A DNA stretch of 64,000 bases from Tetrahymena elliotti 4EA (lineage: Eukaryota > Ciliophora > Oligohymenophorea > Hymenostomatida > Tetrahymenidae), in NCBI GenBank assembly GCA_000231825.2, contig JH720310.1, positions 612,813-676,812 on the forward strand. The letters are read 5' to 3'. A model generated the notes under the pieces. The model was not told the origin of the DNA. It worked only from the letters and a program-made list of their open reading frames with translations, and ran no database searches. The translations under genes and the position numbers were made by a program. Position 1 is the stretch's first letter. Each line of letters begins with the position of its first letter. Below are positions 1,592 through 30,789 of this stretch, one piece after another.

Positions 1592-4500
1592 TTTTGCTTA
1601 TTTTCTAATAAATCTTGATCAATCACTTTCTTACTTTACTTGCTTGCTTTATTAGTTGTTAAATATTAAAGAATAAAAGAAAGCTGATTTCAAAAAAAAA
1701 AGTTTGCTTAATTAATTAAACAAGGGGAGGTAGGGAGGTAGGAGGTATTTAGATTAAAAAAGTAAATCTGATTGAAAAAATATTTGGTAATTAGTTAGAT
1801 AAAGACTTGTCATCAAAATTTATCAAATTTTTTTGTAAAAGGCAAAGCAAGGATTTAAATTTGAAGGCTTTATTGTCAGAATAAAAGCGAAATAGAATAA
1901 CGAGATCTTCTATGCTTCATTATTTCTTCTAATAAAACAAAGTAAAGAGCCTTTGATACAATAATGAGTAAATAAAAAAATAAACATAAATTAAGTCTAT
2001 TTTTGAAGAGGATTAATAGGATTTTGCATCAAACTATTGATGGATCTCCGTTGTTGGTTCAAGAATCAAAAGTGAAGAATATTTCAACAAATTTTATTTT
2101 ATTGATTTTACTAGAAAAGTTATTTGAATAAAAGAATTCTTTGATGAGATCTTTTTAAAATAGACTGAATGTCGTCAAAGGTGATTCTAGTTACTTTGAT
2201 ACTAAATATCATAAGCTAGATTGGTTTCCAAATTTTTATGTCAGGCTTTGTATTTACAAGAAACCAAAGAAACAAGCAAACAAATGAATGACATTATTTA
2301 TTTTATAGGGTAAGTATTTGAATAGCTTTTCTTGTGACACTAATTATTGTTTTTGTATTACTTTAATCACTTTTTTATTTAGAAAATTTTTAATTTAAAA
2401 AATAATATCCTTTGACAATTTTATGTTTAGTTTCTATGCTCGTTACTCAGTTTAATATCTTAACAAATATTTAAAAATTAAGAATCTTTTCCTCTGATAT
2501 CTGCCTATCATTTCTGGTATTTGTAAAAAAATGTTTTTTTTCCATATTTTATGATAACAATTTGTTAATTTTTCCTTAAAGGTAATTTAATTTCCAATTT
2601 GTGTTAATTAGTTAAATCATTCGTGTTGAAATAAAAGATAAATAAATGACTTATTTGATTGAACTCTTTGTTTTTTTCTTTTATTTGTACAAATTGATTA
2701 TAGGTTACAAACTAAAAAAGTGCAGCTGCGTCATTAATTCCTACATGCGCAAAACTAAATATTTTCTTTTTCTACTTAATCACATTAAGGCTTTTATTGT
2801 TCACTATTGTAAGAAGTAAATACAGTTTACCAACACCAACAGATATTTGCTCAACAAGTAAACGAACAAAAAAATAAACAAATAATTTGAATTAAGATAG
2901 ATGTATGGCAGAGAGACAAAAATCTGTTTAATTAATGCAGTTTTATTGAATTGAATGTAAATTTAAAAGCAAAGATAGAAAATAGAATTGCATGACATGG
3001 TATAGAAAAATTATCATTTAGTTTTATCTATGGTGGGAGTGCTTACTGTTCCAAAAAAGTAACAAATTTACCCAGTTGTTTAAATTTAGTAAATTCTTTT
3101 AGATATTTTTTATTGATTTGATTTACTGAATAAAAGGGGAATTTGTGAATTTAATAATCTTTATTGATCAAGACTAAATTGATCAGTCAGTCAGTCAGAT
3201 AGACAGAGAGTCAGCCGCCAAACACTAAAAAAGGTATATAAGTAAGTACAGCAAATTTAAATATCTTTAAATTAAGAAATACTAAAAAATACAAATTTCA
3301 AATATAGAAAAAAAATTGCTTTAATTTTGATCAAGTATTTAGGGGTAAGACAAGCAGGCAGGTAGTTTCATGCTATATTAATAAATAAATTTATTGTAAA
3401 GAGTTGCAATTTGAAGTGCGTTAATTTATTTTATTTATTTTTAGTATACAATTCCGAGATAAGTAAAGCAGTTGATTCAAAATTTACAGCTTTTTTTAAT
3501 TGAAGTGAGTAAAATAGACGAACATTTATCAATTAATTACTATTTTGTTTTTCCATTCATACAGTTTAGTACTATCTTTTATAAATTCAAATAAAAGTTA
3601 TAAGTATAGATTTAATGTAGGAAAAAAAAATTGCGGCGATTGAATTATTGGTGTTTAATTGTATTTCAAAAATAGAAATTTTGAAAAATACAAAATATTA
3701 CTGTGTTTATAAAAATTTTTAATTTTTAGAAATATTTACTCGAATCTATCTCAATTATGGAAAGTATATTTATTTATTTAAGATCTTATTACCTTGCTCA
3801 TTCATTCATACATACCTAATACACTTGCTTAACATCAAGATTACTAAATTTAAAGCAAATTTAAATCAAGCTTATTTAAATGAATCAAATTTTTTTGAAA
3901 ACTAAATCTAACAAAATTGAAATGGATGAATTTATCTCTGAGAACTGTCATCACTGCATAGTTTATAAGAGATCATATGTATTTACAATTTTTGGCTAGA
4001 GTGTAAAGTCTATGAAAATTACTCTATATTTGCTTGATTGTTTATTTATTTTTCCGTCTATCATAAGATTCACCTACTCGCTTGCTTGTTTTGAATTCTG
4101 GAATTATTTAAAAAATAAATTAGATAAAACATGTGATAAAAATTAGTGCTTAGGTGATTGAGAAAAGAATGAAAGATAGTACTCAATTAAGTGAAAAAAG
4201 ATTAAAGCGAAAATGAAAAAATAAAAAAAGAAATTAATTAATTAGTAAGTAAAAAGGATGCGGTGGGATAAATAAATAGATTCTTTGATTGATTGGCAAA
4301 TTGTTTAATTTTAATTTTGAAATGGGGAATGGGTATTTATCAAGAAAAGAGTGCTTTTTCAGCACAGATTTCATTAAGAAAGAAAATAACTAACTAACAA
4401 AAACTAAATTATGAATTTAAAACTCATGCAAATAGATATATCGATATACCGCCAGCCAACTTGATTGCTTAATTGATTGAAAGATACATAAATAAATAAG

Positions 4501-17596: not shown

Positions 17597-20500
17597 ATGG
17601 AGTAGCAATATAAATATAATGAAAGAGGACAAAAGCCTTCTTCCAATTAAAATAATTAAGGATATAATAATGGCAATAACAGTAGTAATAATAACAGCAA
17701 TTACAATAACAATGGGCCTCAGAGTAATTAACTACTGAATTATTTACGATTTTGTTTATGCTATAAATTTATTATTAATAATAGATTAGTTTAGAGATAG
17801 AGAAAGGGAGGAAGAAGAGCATTACTATTAAGCTTAAAATAAAAGAAGATAACAAAAAGTATATCAAGAATATGAAACAAAGCAAGGGAATAATTAAGAG
17901 AGTGGCAATAACTATCAAGCATAGAAAAATCAAAGATAGTATTAGAGAGATGGGAACAAAAATACTAATTAAAATAATATTGAGAATAGAAATCACAATA
18001 ATAGTTAAAAGCAGAATGGAAATAAAAATGAATTTTATCCTAGAAATTAACAAAGATAAGCCAATGACGATTATGATGATAGCGAAGATGATTATGATGA
18101 TAATTCTTTCAACAATTCAAGAAATGGAAAAAAGAAGAATTAAAATAGAAATTAAAATCAGAATAATAAGTAAAAATAATACGATAGCAGCGATGATGAT
18201 TGCAGCGAAGGCAGAAGGAAAAATAGAAGAGAGAAAAAAATAGATCCTAATGGACATAACCCAAATGCTAATATTGACTAATAATATGACAGATCTAAAA
18301 TAGAGCATTATTTCAATGGTAAAGACATCAAGTTTAGCAAAGATAAAAGATTTAACATCTATCACCAAAAAGACGAAGAATACTTTCATAACTCCAAAAA
18401 CAGAAACGGTGCTAATAAAATAGAAAGAAACTCAAACAGCAACCACAGCAGCATTAACTAAAAGAGCAATGAAGATTTTACTATTGAAAGCCTAGTGGAT
18501 TAAGTAGACTTTTAGGTTAACTTAGATAATATCTTTAATGAAACTAACATGGAAGACTATGATTGGAATAACTTGTATCAATTATTTAAATTATCAGAAA
18601 AGAAAAACTCGCTATTTTTCGCAGTAAATAAATAAACAAACATAATTATAATTAATTTATATGACCTTCTAATAGTTCATTTATTATCACCAATCATGTA
18701 CATTTTAATATATTCATTGTTTTAATTTTACAAATATTCAACAGATGCAAGGAGATAACTAGGTTATTTTTGACAAGAAAGAAATGGAAACTGATATGTT
18801 TAGGCTTTTCTAAAAACTTGCAAAAATCCTCATTTTGGGTGATTTAGAAACTGCAAGTGAAAAGAAGATTGATTAAAGACTTTGGGATATTTATAAGAAA
18901 AAGATTGAGTATAGCAAAAAATTTAAACTTGTTAGCACAAATGTATCAGACCAGCTTCATATTTTCGATTCTAAGATTCAATTCTTAAGAGGGTTGCTCA
19001 AGGATGTTATAGAAGTAATAATATTTTGGTGATATGATAGTTGTTATTAAATAATATGTATAAATATATAAAAGAAATACAAATCAGAATTATGTTCTGA
19101 AATAAAAGAAAAGAATAAAAAGAGAAGAATTATTGCTAACTTATGCTGCTACTTTGGAGAGCTCATTGAGTTAAAGTAAAAAGCCTTTATATTTTTTAAA
19201 ATGTTTGTTTCAATTTTCAAATGTAAAATAGAGAGAAAGTTTCAAGAACATAAACAACTCCTAATATGAAGAACATGCACTTTGCTGCTGGCTAGTACAT
19301 GAAAGCGATCAGCATTTACCCATTTTGTGGCAAATTCTTTTTAGTCTTAGCAAGTAATTTAATTAATATTTATTTATTAATCAATTAATCTATACGAAAT
19401 ATTATTTAATTAAATTGCAAAATATTATAAAATAATTAAATTAAGCTTTAAGTTACATGAGTGATGACTAATTTTCTGCTATTTACTGGTGTATAAGAGC
19501 TCTTTGTAGTTAATAGTCTTATCCTTGTAAAGAAAATCTGTAGGAATTCTTGGAAATAAATAGATAGAAATGCTATCAGTTTATGTAGGAGCATAATAGC
19601 TATGGAAAAATAGACAAAAGGGATACTTTCAAGTTATTTATTTTGCATTTTTTGAGCTTTGTGAATATTGCTTTAACCAAAATTGGAATTGAAAACATGC
19701 AAACTCATGCTCCTATGTTTGAGTATTTACAATAGCATCTCTAACTGTTGCAATCACAAATTTAATCACAACAAGATGTTAGTTTGAAGGATTAAACTAC
19801 TTTGCTTACATATGTTATTATGATGGTAGTATTTGCCTTGAGCAAATTTTAAGAGTATATTAAACTTAAAGATGGTTAAGTTTTGGATGTTAAAATACTT
19901 GAAAATGATATTTTGGCTAGTAACTGTTTGAAATATACCTATGGAATCTTGAACATGATTCTTGAATTATACGTCAATTATGACGTACCTTATTTCACTG
20001 ACTTAGTTATCCCTATTATCTGTTACTTCGTTTCTTATCAAGCTGTTTCAGATTATCTATTTACAAAATTCCCTCACTTCCAAACTCTTTTCAACAAAAT
20101 TCTCTCAAAAACAAAATAGAGATTTGCTAATTTCGAAAAATTAAAGCCAAAAAGCTTTTATGAAAGTCTTTGCGATAACTATTTATGTGAAACTGAAATT
20201 CAAATGATAGGCTACACACCATTCAACCCATATTTCGAAAACAACAAAGATAAATTTAAAATCCTTGAAGACGACTCTCTCCAATATCCCCTTAAGCTCT
20301 TCATCATCCTAGACAAGCTCCCAAAAATTGAATCTTTCAAAATTTTGGAAGAGGATGAATAAATAGACTAAAATCATGATCATGACCAAGAAGATTTTTT
20401 CTTCTTGAAAACAACTCCTCAAAAAGTAAACAAAAAAACAAACAAACATATTCTTTTTTAATAAATAATCTCATCTAAGTTTAATTTAATAAATAATATT

Positions 20501-22179
20501 TATAAAAACAAGAGATGTCTTATTTTTTTTTTAAATACTAATTTAATAAGAATTTTAAAGTGATAATCTCACCTAATCACCTAAGTTAATTTGAATCAAA
20601 AAAATAAAATCTTTAAAAGCAAGATTTTACTTTTAAATGCTTAGGAAATAAAAATCTCTTCTAAGCTAAAATGAATAGCATAAATATAACTGAGAAAAAA
20701 AATAGATCTAGTATTTTCTTTTGAGTGCTACTTAAGGATTAAAAAGATAATCTCATCGAGATTAAATTGAATTGTTTAAATAGAATCGATAATAACAAGA
20801 GAAATATTATTTTACTTTTAAATCCTTATTTAATCTTCTTAGAATTAAAAAAATAATCTCAATTAAATTGAATTAAATTATTCAATTAGAATTTATAAAA
20901 AACAAGAGAAATGTGATTTTATTTTCATCACACAACAAAGCATTTTATTTTCATCACACAACAAAGCATTTTATTTTCATCACACAACAAAGNNNNNNNN
21001 NNNNNNNNNNNNNNNNNNNNNNNNNNNNNNNNNNNNNNNNNNNNNNNNNNNNNNNNNNNNNNNNNNNNNNNNNNNNNNNNNNNNNNNNNNNNNNNNNNNN
21101 NNNNNNNNNNNNNNNNNNNNNNNNNNNNNNNNNNNNNNNNNNNNNNNNNNNNNNNNTTTCATCACACAACAAAGCATTTTATTTTCATCACACAACAAAG
21201 CATTTTATTTTTAATGCACTTTAATCTAAAGAATTAAAAAAAGGGGTATTTATTTGACTAATAAAAGTTAATATTTTAATTTAAAAATTCAGAGAAGTAG
21301 TAATTATTAATTTGTTTGTTTTGAGATATTTATGAGTTGGTTTATTTATTTAAAATAAATATTCAATTAATTTTATCAATTTAAACAAAAGGAAAATAAT
21401 GGAGAACAAGAAAGTAAATAGTTGATTATCATAGATGGAATGAATGTTGCAATAAGATATGGATAATCTACCTTCTGTGCTAAAGGTCTTTAAATTGTTG
21501 TAGATTTTTGGCTGAATCATTAAGCAGAAGTTTTGGTATTTTTACCTGATTTTTGCTTTAGTGCAGATTAGATTGAAAAGAAAAGACAAAAATTCTAAAA
21601 AGAAAAGGTAAAAAATAAATAAAAGAAATTGATAATTGTAATAATCTTAAAATATAAAAAGATTCCTGAAAAATTCAAGACTTTACCTGATGAAGTAGAG
21701 ACTCTAATTAAGCTTAGAGACTAGGTATATTATTATAAAAAATAAATAAATCAACAGATTTAAAATTTATGAAAATAATTAGGGATATGCTACTGGTATA
21801 CCTAACTTTAGTTATGATGATTCTTACATGATTGATTATGCAAGAAAGAAGAATGCCTTTATTATGACTAATGATAGATATAATGATCATATCTAAAACT
21901 TCAAAAATGATCCTAAGTAAATGGAAATAGTGAAGTAATGGATTAGAAACAACTGTATGAGTTTTACTTTTGTCAAAGATGAACTACAACCAGACCCTGA
22001 TTTCATATAGAAAAGAACTAAGATATCTTTAGAAAAGCCTTACTAATGAAATGCAAGAAATGAAACGAAATACTATTAAATTAACTGCAAATGATCAACC
22101 AACCATTCAGCTGAATTCTAAAATGAATGTCTTTACATAAGAAAAGTAATTTGTAGTAAAAGTAGTTTCGAATGAATGA
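17597..22179 (+). CDS. EST1/SMG6-like protein with C-terminal NYN nuclease
   Basis: Nine exons: 17597-17723, 17785-18623, 18745-19014, 19075-19175, 19232-19353, 19446-20425, 21392-21607, 21662-21724 and 21783 to the end. All junctions agree in phase. Residues 1-320 are Asn/Gln/Asp-rich and look disordered. About residues 323-490 resemble the EST1 N-terminal helical domain (LWDIYKKKIEYSKKFKLVS; AAGQYMKAISIYPFCGKFFL). The EST1-type RNA/DNA-binding region follows to about 800 (LSYMSDDQFSAIYWCIRAL; LCETEIQMIGYTPFNPY). Residues about 814-970 match the Regnase/ZC3H12A NYN fold: IIIDGMNVA (D828), YDD (D918, D919), MTND (D937) and SFTFVKDELQPDPD. The catalytic acids are all present. The likely role is endonucleolytic RNA decay. 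The frame as given stops at 22049 (994 aa), but one extra A would extend it to 22179. The alternative is two genes, the nuclease starting at ATG 21332. Confidence 0.78.
20917..21212. repeat. 26-bp tandem satellite spanning an assembly gap
   Basis: Near-identical 26-bp units (core TTTTCATCACACAACAAAGC) are seen three times left of the gap and about twice to its right. The gap was evidently left because the array could not be assembled, so the true array length is unknown. Confidence 0.93.
20993..21156. other. Assembly gap of 164 N
   Basis: A run of N flanked on both sides by the same 26-bp satellite unit. Confidence 0.99.
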
Positions 22180-28177: not shown

Positions 28178-29353
28178 TCAGTTGATTTTGATAATTTTAG
28201 AGCTTTTATTTTAATTATATTTGCGATTAAGCATTCTGATAGCTTTGATATGTGCTTCTCCTATTCCTTCTCCAAATGAGTTAGGATAAATTCCAACAAA
28301 GCAATTATGGCCAATAGGAAAGTAATTGTGATTAATTGATATTCCTGTTTCTATCTATTATTATAAAAACTCACTGTTGTCTATTGAGGTTTCATCTACC
28401 AATTTATTTAGCAAATCTAAAGGAACCCAAGCACTATAATCAATCTCTTTCCTTTATTAAGATAGTTAAATATCTTTAAAAGACTCTTTTATCTTAAATG
28501 TGTAAAATATCACCAAACTAGATCTTTGTGGGTAGTTAATAGTTAAACTAGTTGGGAATACGCTTTCATATAAAAATAAAGGTTTTGGATCTTCAGCTAA
28601 ATGAACAGTACTTTTAGTCAAAAAATCTTCTTTCTTAGGTTATTGATTGGTATCTACTTTCTTCTTCTAATCTTACATTTTTTTCTACAATCTTGTTTAT
28701 CTTTTGAACATATTTTCTTCTTCATCTTCTCCACCTATTTCTTTCTCTTCATTAATAGCTTACTAATTATTATGAGATTATTATTCAAAGTCATCTTCTA
28801 AGTCAAAGATTTCCTCTTAGTTCTATGGCAAAAGGATATTTAATCCTACTTCTTCTTTAATTTCTCTAAAAGCTGTATTTATTAAACTTTCTCCTACATC
28901 AACTTATCCTCCAGGAAATACCCAACAACGAGGATATGTTCTCATTTCTGGGTTTCTCTTAGTGAGTAGAACATAGTTATTCTTATCGATAATAATTCCA
29001 CAAGCGGCTACTCCAATTGTTTATTAACTAAGCTAAAATTACTAATCTAATCTACTAAACTAAAAATGAGGACAAATATTGGCATGCTAAAATGTGATAT
29101 TTTAGTAAACTAAGTTTTATTTATCTTGCTATTACTTTTAAGCATCAGTCAACCTAGCAAATCCTTATTTCTGATCATAATACAAATTAACCTGTATCTC
29201 ATCTAGCTGCTTTTCAAAATGGCCATTTTTTACCTTTTCTAATAAACAAGTTCCAATTTTTTGAAATTAAGAGTCTTCTCCAACTTTCAGTTTAATCACT
29301 TCTGGTTTAGAATTAGCTTAATTTTGTTTTTTACCTTTATTATTTATGTCCAT
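28178..29353 (-). CDS. Nudix hydrolase, NUDT17-like
   Basis: Single-exon minus-strand frame of 391 aa, ATG at 29353-29351 and TGA at 28180-28178. The Nudix box lies at about residues 148-171: GGQVDVGE, then REIKEEVGL, matching G-x5-E-x7-REUxEExGU with all metal-binding glutamates present. Just upstream are CGIIIDKNNYVLLTKRNP and YPRCWVFPGG, the usual beta strands before the box. The N-terminal 130 residues include a Gln-rich stretch and NICPHFQF. The region after the box has a charged insert (EKEIGGEDEEE), then FLYESVFP and WVPLDLL, the typical C-terminal half of the fold. Nudix enzymes hydrolyse nucleoside diphosphates linked to another moiety. Arrangement and size suggest NUDT17-like, but the substrate cannot be read from sequence. 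Confidence 0.92.
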
Positions 29354-30789
29354 TTCTACTTACAATTTCGTTTTTAATTATTCAATCTAATTGTTTTTTT
29401 TAATTAATTAATTTATTTTGATAATATGAATTATAATAAATATTGTTGATTTAATTCCTTCTTTCTAAAGATACAATCTACTTAGTTAGCTATTCTATTC
29501 ATTCCACTTTTATCAGAAAATTTAAATGAAGTAAGTATCTATTTTAAGAATCTTACTGATAATAAGTGTATTTTCAAAGCCTAAATTTATGAAATTTGAT
29601 GTCATTCTTCATTAACCATAATAAATACAAATTAACTAAAATAATAATAGAAACATTTCTCATAAAATAATTAATCTCATGTTTTTCAATCTTATTAGTA
29701 GAATTTGTTTAATTAGATTTTTAATTTTAATTCCAAAATAATAGATTATTATTTAAACGCAAAAGATAAATAATTTAAACTTTTCAAATTTAGCTTTAAA
29801 TACTTAAAAAAGAAATCTTCAAATCAAAATTATTATTAGCTAATCAAAAATCGAAACAAAAATTAATAATTCTTACTTAAAATCTTAATCATCTTTTTTA
29901 AAATCAAATTCATTTTTATTTTAAAAAAATATCTTTTTAGAAATTCGATAGAAAATTTAAGAAAATAAAAATAGAAATTTTAAATTCATTTTCATTTTTT
30001 ATGATCAAATCAATGATTATTTTAAAAATACATATTTTAAAAATGATATTTAAATTAAAGAAAAATTAAAAATTATTAATTTATTTTATATTATTATCAA
30101 TCAGATCAACAAAACAAACTCACATTTTTACGAATCTTGAAAAAAATAAAGAAGTTAAAAACCATTTTGTTTGTTTGTTTGTTTTGCTTGATCAAAAAAT
30201 AAATATTTTAAGATTTTTGAAAGAAACATTGTAAAATTTCAGAAAAATAAAAAATCATTTTCATATTCACTACAACAAAATCAAATCAACAATTGTTTTT
30301 GGAAAAATACATATTTTAGGTCATTTTGAAAAAGTAGTTGGATAATAAAGTGTTTTAATTAATAATTTTTCTTATAAAAGTTATTAATTATCAACTAGTT
30401 ATTATGAAATGCTTAACATTTTGATGATTTCTTTATAATTCTATAAATAAATCAAAATTGAATTAGAACTGCTCATTAAATTTTGTGAAGGAATATTTCT
30501 TAATTATTGCTTTAATCAAACAACAAATAGAAAATTTGAGAAAACAGATTGAGAAAAAATTGTCAATTTTTCTTTTTCAATATTTTTTTATTTTGTGAAA
30601 ACAAACTATTTAGTTTTTAAACAATAAATTCATTTTTTTATAATTTTAAAAAGATTTGCCTGATTTTGTAATATTAATTGATTTGAATATTTAACTATTA
30701 TTTTATATTAATGATTAGATGTTTGTTTATTTTGTATTTATCTTGTTTATGTTATTATAAATAAAGATTTTTCAACTTAATAATTTGTA
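29354..30789. other. Divergent intergenic region
   Basis: The 1.4 kb between the divergent Nudix gene and the next plus-strand gene should hold both promoters. No motif beyond poly-A/T tracts and a (GTTT) run near 30168 could be singled out. Confidence 0.5.

Follow-up and report, generated by a model that had tools for sequence, protein, structure and literature searches.

Can a ciliate gene unite, in one polypeptide, the EST1-type scaffold of the nonsense-mediated mRNA decay (NMD) factor SMG6 and a nuclease of another kind, and how would such a protein reach and cut its target? The question is raised by a locus of Tetrahymena elliotti 4EA, contained in a stretch of 64,000 nucleotides (contig JH720310.1, positions 612,813 to 676,812 of the forward strand) that is here called the window and numbered from its first letter. 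An initial annotation had placed there an SMG6-like protein with a Regnase-type NYN nuclease instead of PIN. This family assignment is right: the protein pairs an EST1-type scaffold with a Regnase-type NYN at its C-terminus, the architecture that a 2018 review gives for SMG6L of T. thermophila (PMC6173133). Our analysis indicates that the gene is, with high probability, Tetrahymena SMG6L, an NMD endonuclease, and that its nuclease and its putative UPF1-binding site differ from those of animal SMG6.

Support for a fused EST1-NYN polypeptide

The SMG6L-type coding region occupies positions 17597..22049 of the window (+ strand). It comprises nine exons separated by GT-AG introns and encodes 994 amino acids under ciliate code 6, in which TAA and TAG specify Gln, with TGA at 22047-22049 as the stop. 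A T. malaccensis protein (P0001) is collinear over the full length: the end-to-end alignment has 865/994 identical residues (87%) and passes the junction of exons 6 and 7 (TTPQK/EN), around which 22/25 residues (801-825) are identical. The initial annotation had proposed separate profile searches of the two halves. Scanned alone against Pfam, the first half matches EST1_DNA_bind (E = 2.3e-10; residues 466-749) and the second RNase_Zc3h12a (E = 2.3e-39), whereas the N-terminal family EST1, also expected, has no match at E≤1. The N-terminal helical part is backed by profile and structure comparisons rather than by Pfam EST1.

A protein search with residues 310-994 against 5.8 billion proteins (E≤0.01) matched five homologues: P0001 (94% over query residues 310-994), P0002 from Pseudocohnilembus persalinus, P0003, a JGI protein on a 2.7-kb contig that is without its N-terminus, P0004 from Paramecium octaurelia, and P0005 from Paramecium sonneborni. 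RNase_Zc3h12a and EST1_DNA_bind occur on one chain in all five (E≤1), the former above cut-off in each (5.7e-20 or better) and the latter in four. The same fusion is thus found in other ciliates, namely T. malaccensis, P. persalinus, and two Paramecium species, a distribution that the initial annotation had suggested looking for. Two further protein searches, with alignment A1 and with P0003, gave P0003 alone among the ~8000 candidates that had the most words in common with the query and were therefore scored. As the T. malaccensis protein is collinear over 994 residues and both families are present in 5/5 homologues, a single fused EST1 plus NYN polypeptide is supported at the level of sequence.

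The alternative would be two adjoining genes, one EST1-like with its end near 20560, the other encoding a small NYN nuclease from the ATG at 21332. In our own nine-exon model the boundaries at 20425 and 21392 are in phase 0, as first annotated, and the open frame does continue beyond 20425 up to a stop at 20561. It had been argued that the NYN exon must be spliced to the EST1 exons for want of a nearby in-frame ATG; in fact, ATG 21332-21334 is in frame with that exon, with no code-6 stop between them. Intron 6 (20426..21391, + strand) is also long, at 966 bp, next to the remaining seven introns (54-121 bp), and it contains a 164-N assembly gap (20993-21156). The argument from a missing ATG accordingly fails, yet the conclusion that the protein is fused holds because homology supports it: the fused and collinear T. 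malaccensis protein, the identity across the junction, and the presence of both families on one chain in every homologue make a pair of separate genes very improbable. The gap itself is flanked on both sides by a perfect 26-bp tandem repeat (20916..21211; 100% matches at 20916-20992 and 21157-21211), so that, most simply, it probably represents an array of this repeat that the assembly left unresolved.

Several points weigh against a fused SMG6-type protein. The splicing of the gapped 966-bp intron is predicted rather than RNA-based, and the homologues in the database are possibly predictions too, that of T. malaccensis perhaps an ab initio one. The missing EST1 match counts here as well, as does P0002, whose EST1_DNA_bind score of 21.5 bits (E = 1.9e-4) lies below the cut-off of 22 bits. 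The structure model, built on five sequences, has a mean predicted local distance difference test score (pLDDT) of 61.3 and is weak over residues 301-390 (blocks of 44-69), where the putative phosphoserine pocket lies. Precomputed database lists give EST1_DNA_bind in only 2/5 homologues (P0001 and P0003).

The protein opens with exon 1 (17597..17723), which supplies the start ATG, at the same place as in P0001, and an N/Q-rich N-terminus. Low-complexity sequence continues in exon 2 (17785..18623). Exons 5 (19232..19353), whose junctions match P0001, and 6 (19446..20425) carry the later part of the EST1 helical domain. At the 3' end, an alternative last exon extending to 22179, where the initial annotation had let the coding region end, was rejected: the T. 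malaccensis protein stops at the same residue as our model, at 22049.

Within the faster-changing N/Q-rich tail (residues 1-290; 77% identity to T. malaccensis overall), exon 2 holds an island, residues 201-250, with 47/50 identical residues, a candidate docking motif. The Paramecium proteins begin near the EST1 domain and are without this tail.

A complete acidic set in the NYN active site

The NYN nuclease begins in exon 7 (21392..21607), which contributes D828, and runs through exon 8 (21662..21724) into exon 9 (21783..22049), which contributes D918, D919, D937, and D941 as well as the C-terminus. D828, D918/D919, and D937 had been recognized in the initial annotation and stand at the same positions in our model; all five aspartates are invariant in the five homologues. 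In animal SMG6, four acids are present and the fifth (D893) is contributed by SMG5, according to a 2026 finding (PMC12923823). The same source gives the acids of PRORP1 as D399, D474, D475, D493, and D497, and the spacing 919->937->941 matches PRORP1 475->493->497. KHNYN, the best Protein Data Bank (PDB) sequence match (1.3e-10), likewise has an aspartate where its structure aligns with position 941. Given the equal spacing in PRORP1 and the KHNYN aspartate, the fifth acid looks like an ordinary NYN feature that is here present in cis. With D941 supplied in cis, SMG6L would need no SMG5-like partner.

A phosphoserine pocket that may be half lost

SMG7 binds phosphoserine through K66 and R163 (PMC6739308). 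In the window protein, the 14-3-3-like/EST1 helical domain begins in exon 3 (18745..19014), which holds K373 at the place of SMG7 K66, four residues past a conserved Trp; this place is Lys in 4/4 covering rows of alignment A3. The place of R163, which is the arginine of GDxxR in SMG6 and SMG7, falls within the GELIE of exon 4 (19075..19175) and is occupied by E444, reading E, E, E, Q, E in the five rows of A3 (5/5). P0005 was left out of A3 and is the same as P0004 at both places. The R163 place was taken from HMMER alignments to human SMG6 (GDIAR) and Caenorhabditis elegans SMG-7 (GDLMR). On our reading, half of the phosphoserine site may have been lost and UPF1 may be held via another surface; Glu or Gln in place of R163 hints at phospho-independent recruitment.

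There are grounds for doubting such a loss. HMMER aligns human SMG7 itself with a shift at GDIARYR. Moreover, the lysine is retained, and in SMG7, K66E alone abolishes binding while R163E adds nothing (PMC6739308); the retained lysine could on these terms keep some phosphoserine binding. SMG6 and SMG5, which have Tyr at the K66 place (Tyr649 in SMG6), are described as binding phospho-UPF1 weakly (PMC4132714).

An arm motif, RGX5LWDP, that holds UPF1 is reported to be common to animal SMG6 and yeast Nmd4 (PMC11463774). The pattern RGx3-6[LIVMF]WxP is absent from 6/6 sequences, the window protein included and P0003 being without its N-terminus.

A probable role in NMD and its genomic context

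In the mechanism that we favor, the EST1/SMG5-6-7 scaffold would dock the protein onto UPF1 at a prematurely terminating ribosome. Direct docking would be likelier than docking via phosphoserine, since the aligned rows have an acid or amide at the place of the pocket arginine. The NYN would cleave the mRNA by means of metal that D828, D918, D919, and D937 bind, D941 serving as the fifth acid, and the pieces would then be cleared by exonucleases.

A fused protein might instead have its main role outside NMD, for example in telomere work or general mRNA turnover, like yeast Est1 or plant DNE1. We regard this as unlikely, as T. thermophila SMG6L appears, in the account of the review, to act with UPF1 in NMD (PMC6173133), and profile scores favor SMG6 (42.3 bits) over SMG7 (27.2 and 21.7), though structural scores slightly favor SMG7. 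The SMG6 PIN domain is not among the 50 structure matches listed, which excludes nothing.

The genome (90 Mb in 134 contigs, the window lying on contig C18) was searched for other components. The PF11977 profile has two matches, both exons of the SMG6L-type gene, and a search with P0001 gave eight, all in the same gene, although a diverged SMG5/7 paralogue could escape it. PIN_4, which we take to be the SMG6-type PIN domain, has 0 candidates in an exon-by-exon search in which 9/14 controls matched. UPF1_Zn_bind has five matches at two loci, on contigs C9 and C27; the C9 helicase motifs, judged by eye, look canonical for UPF1. UPF3 has a weak match (1.6e-6). Profile searches with EST1_DNA_bind, Upf2, and SMG1 gave no match in the genome, but the controls were silent too, making these searches uninformative on absence.

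The helicase on C27, outside the window, is a second one of UPF1 type (C27:982971-986354; open reading frames [ORFs] 196-2343 and 2285-3382). It has three tandem Cys modules of regular spacing, with CxxC at 88/139/163, 282/330/354, and 445/493/517. UPF1_Zn_bind matches three stretches on the whole ORF; when the modules are scanned singly, modules 2 and 3 match and module 1 does not. The helicase part is nearest to NAM7/UPF1 (2.5e-40). For a UPF1 paralogue, three copies of a UPF2-binding-type domain would be unusual.

In the window itself there are 52 code-6 open frames of at least 220 amino acids, of which 10 were scanned. One of these (28181-29512, - strand) has a NUDIX domain (3.4e-14), and the other nine are without a Pfam match at E≤0.001.

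Comparison with known systems

The gene is closest to T. thermophila SMG6L, with which it shares an SMG5/6/7-family protein with a C-terminal NYN, the genus, and UPF1 in the genome; no difference was seen, the comparison being with the description in the review. The source cited for T. thermophila SMG6L is reportedly Tian et al., 2017, in Nucleic Acids Research. The EST1-NYN architecture is thus already known in kind (PMC6173133), and the bare sequence of the window confirms that in ciliates an SMG6-like scaffold carries a Regnase-type nuclease. The pocket and the fifth acid would be the additions of the present analysis, and these residues open recruitment and activation of an NMD endonuclease to single-substitution tests.

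Regnase/ZC3H12 proteins and KHNYN share the NYN domain with its acidic residues but combine it with a CCCH zinc finger or a KH-like domain, whereas the window protein has the EST1 scaffold. In Regnase/ZC3H12, the CCCH finger follows the NYN. Such a finger is described for ZC3H12A (PMC6615859); in the window protein zf-CCCH is not matched in the Pfam scan (E≤1), and the chain stops just past the NYN.

Yeast Ebs1 with Nmd4 and plant SMG7 with DNE1 resemble the window protein in assembling EST1-type and PIN/NYN proteins around UPF1, as described in PMC6173133, PMC11463774, and PMC10226599. They differ in being two separate proteins, in contrast to the single chain encoded here, and the PIN of Nmd4 is reported to be without catalytic residues (PMC11463774).

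Animal SMG6 likewise has a low-complexity N-terminal region, then a 14-3-3-like/TPR (tetratricopeptide repeat) helical scaffold and, at the C-terminus, a nuclease of the PIN superfamily. The differences are several: the window protein has a NYN of the Zc3h12a family where SMG6 has its own type of PIN, and the nuclease half matches RNase_Zc3h12a and not PIN_4 (Pfam scan, E≤1); it is without the arm motif; it has Lys where SMG6 has Tyr at the SMG7 K66 place, and Glu or Gln at the R163 place; and its fifth acid is in cis, that of SMG6 coming from SMG5. The initial annotation had called this a convergent swap of nuclease fold, which holds in part. A different nuclease does sit on the same kind of scaffold, but the fold is the same, NYN domains being members of the PIN superfamily (PMC6615859, PMC10226599), so what changed relative to animal SMG6 is the branch of nuclease. 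Independent acquisition of the nuclease would fit, as the review places the gain of PIN in the animal lineage, while SMG5/6/7 diversified (PMC6173133).

T. thermophila is also reported to have lost SMG1, and whether SMG6L contacts UPF1 directly or via phosphorylation is posed as an open question (PMC6173133). It is conceivable, if on balance doubtful, that the ciliate NMD cutter is a self-sufficient single chain, with its fifth acid in cis and an arginine-less pocket, and uses no SMG1-type kinase for UPF1 recruitment. If true, this would answer that question, and one polypeptide would do the job of animal SMG5 and SMG6 together. Compared with animal SMG6, which SMG5 completes (PMC12923823), the ciliate protein would then be a nuclease of the PIN superfamily carried by an EST1 scaffold, with all that it needs on a single chain, in a lineage from which SMG1 is reportedly missing.
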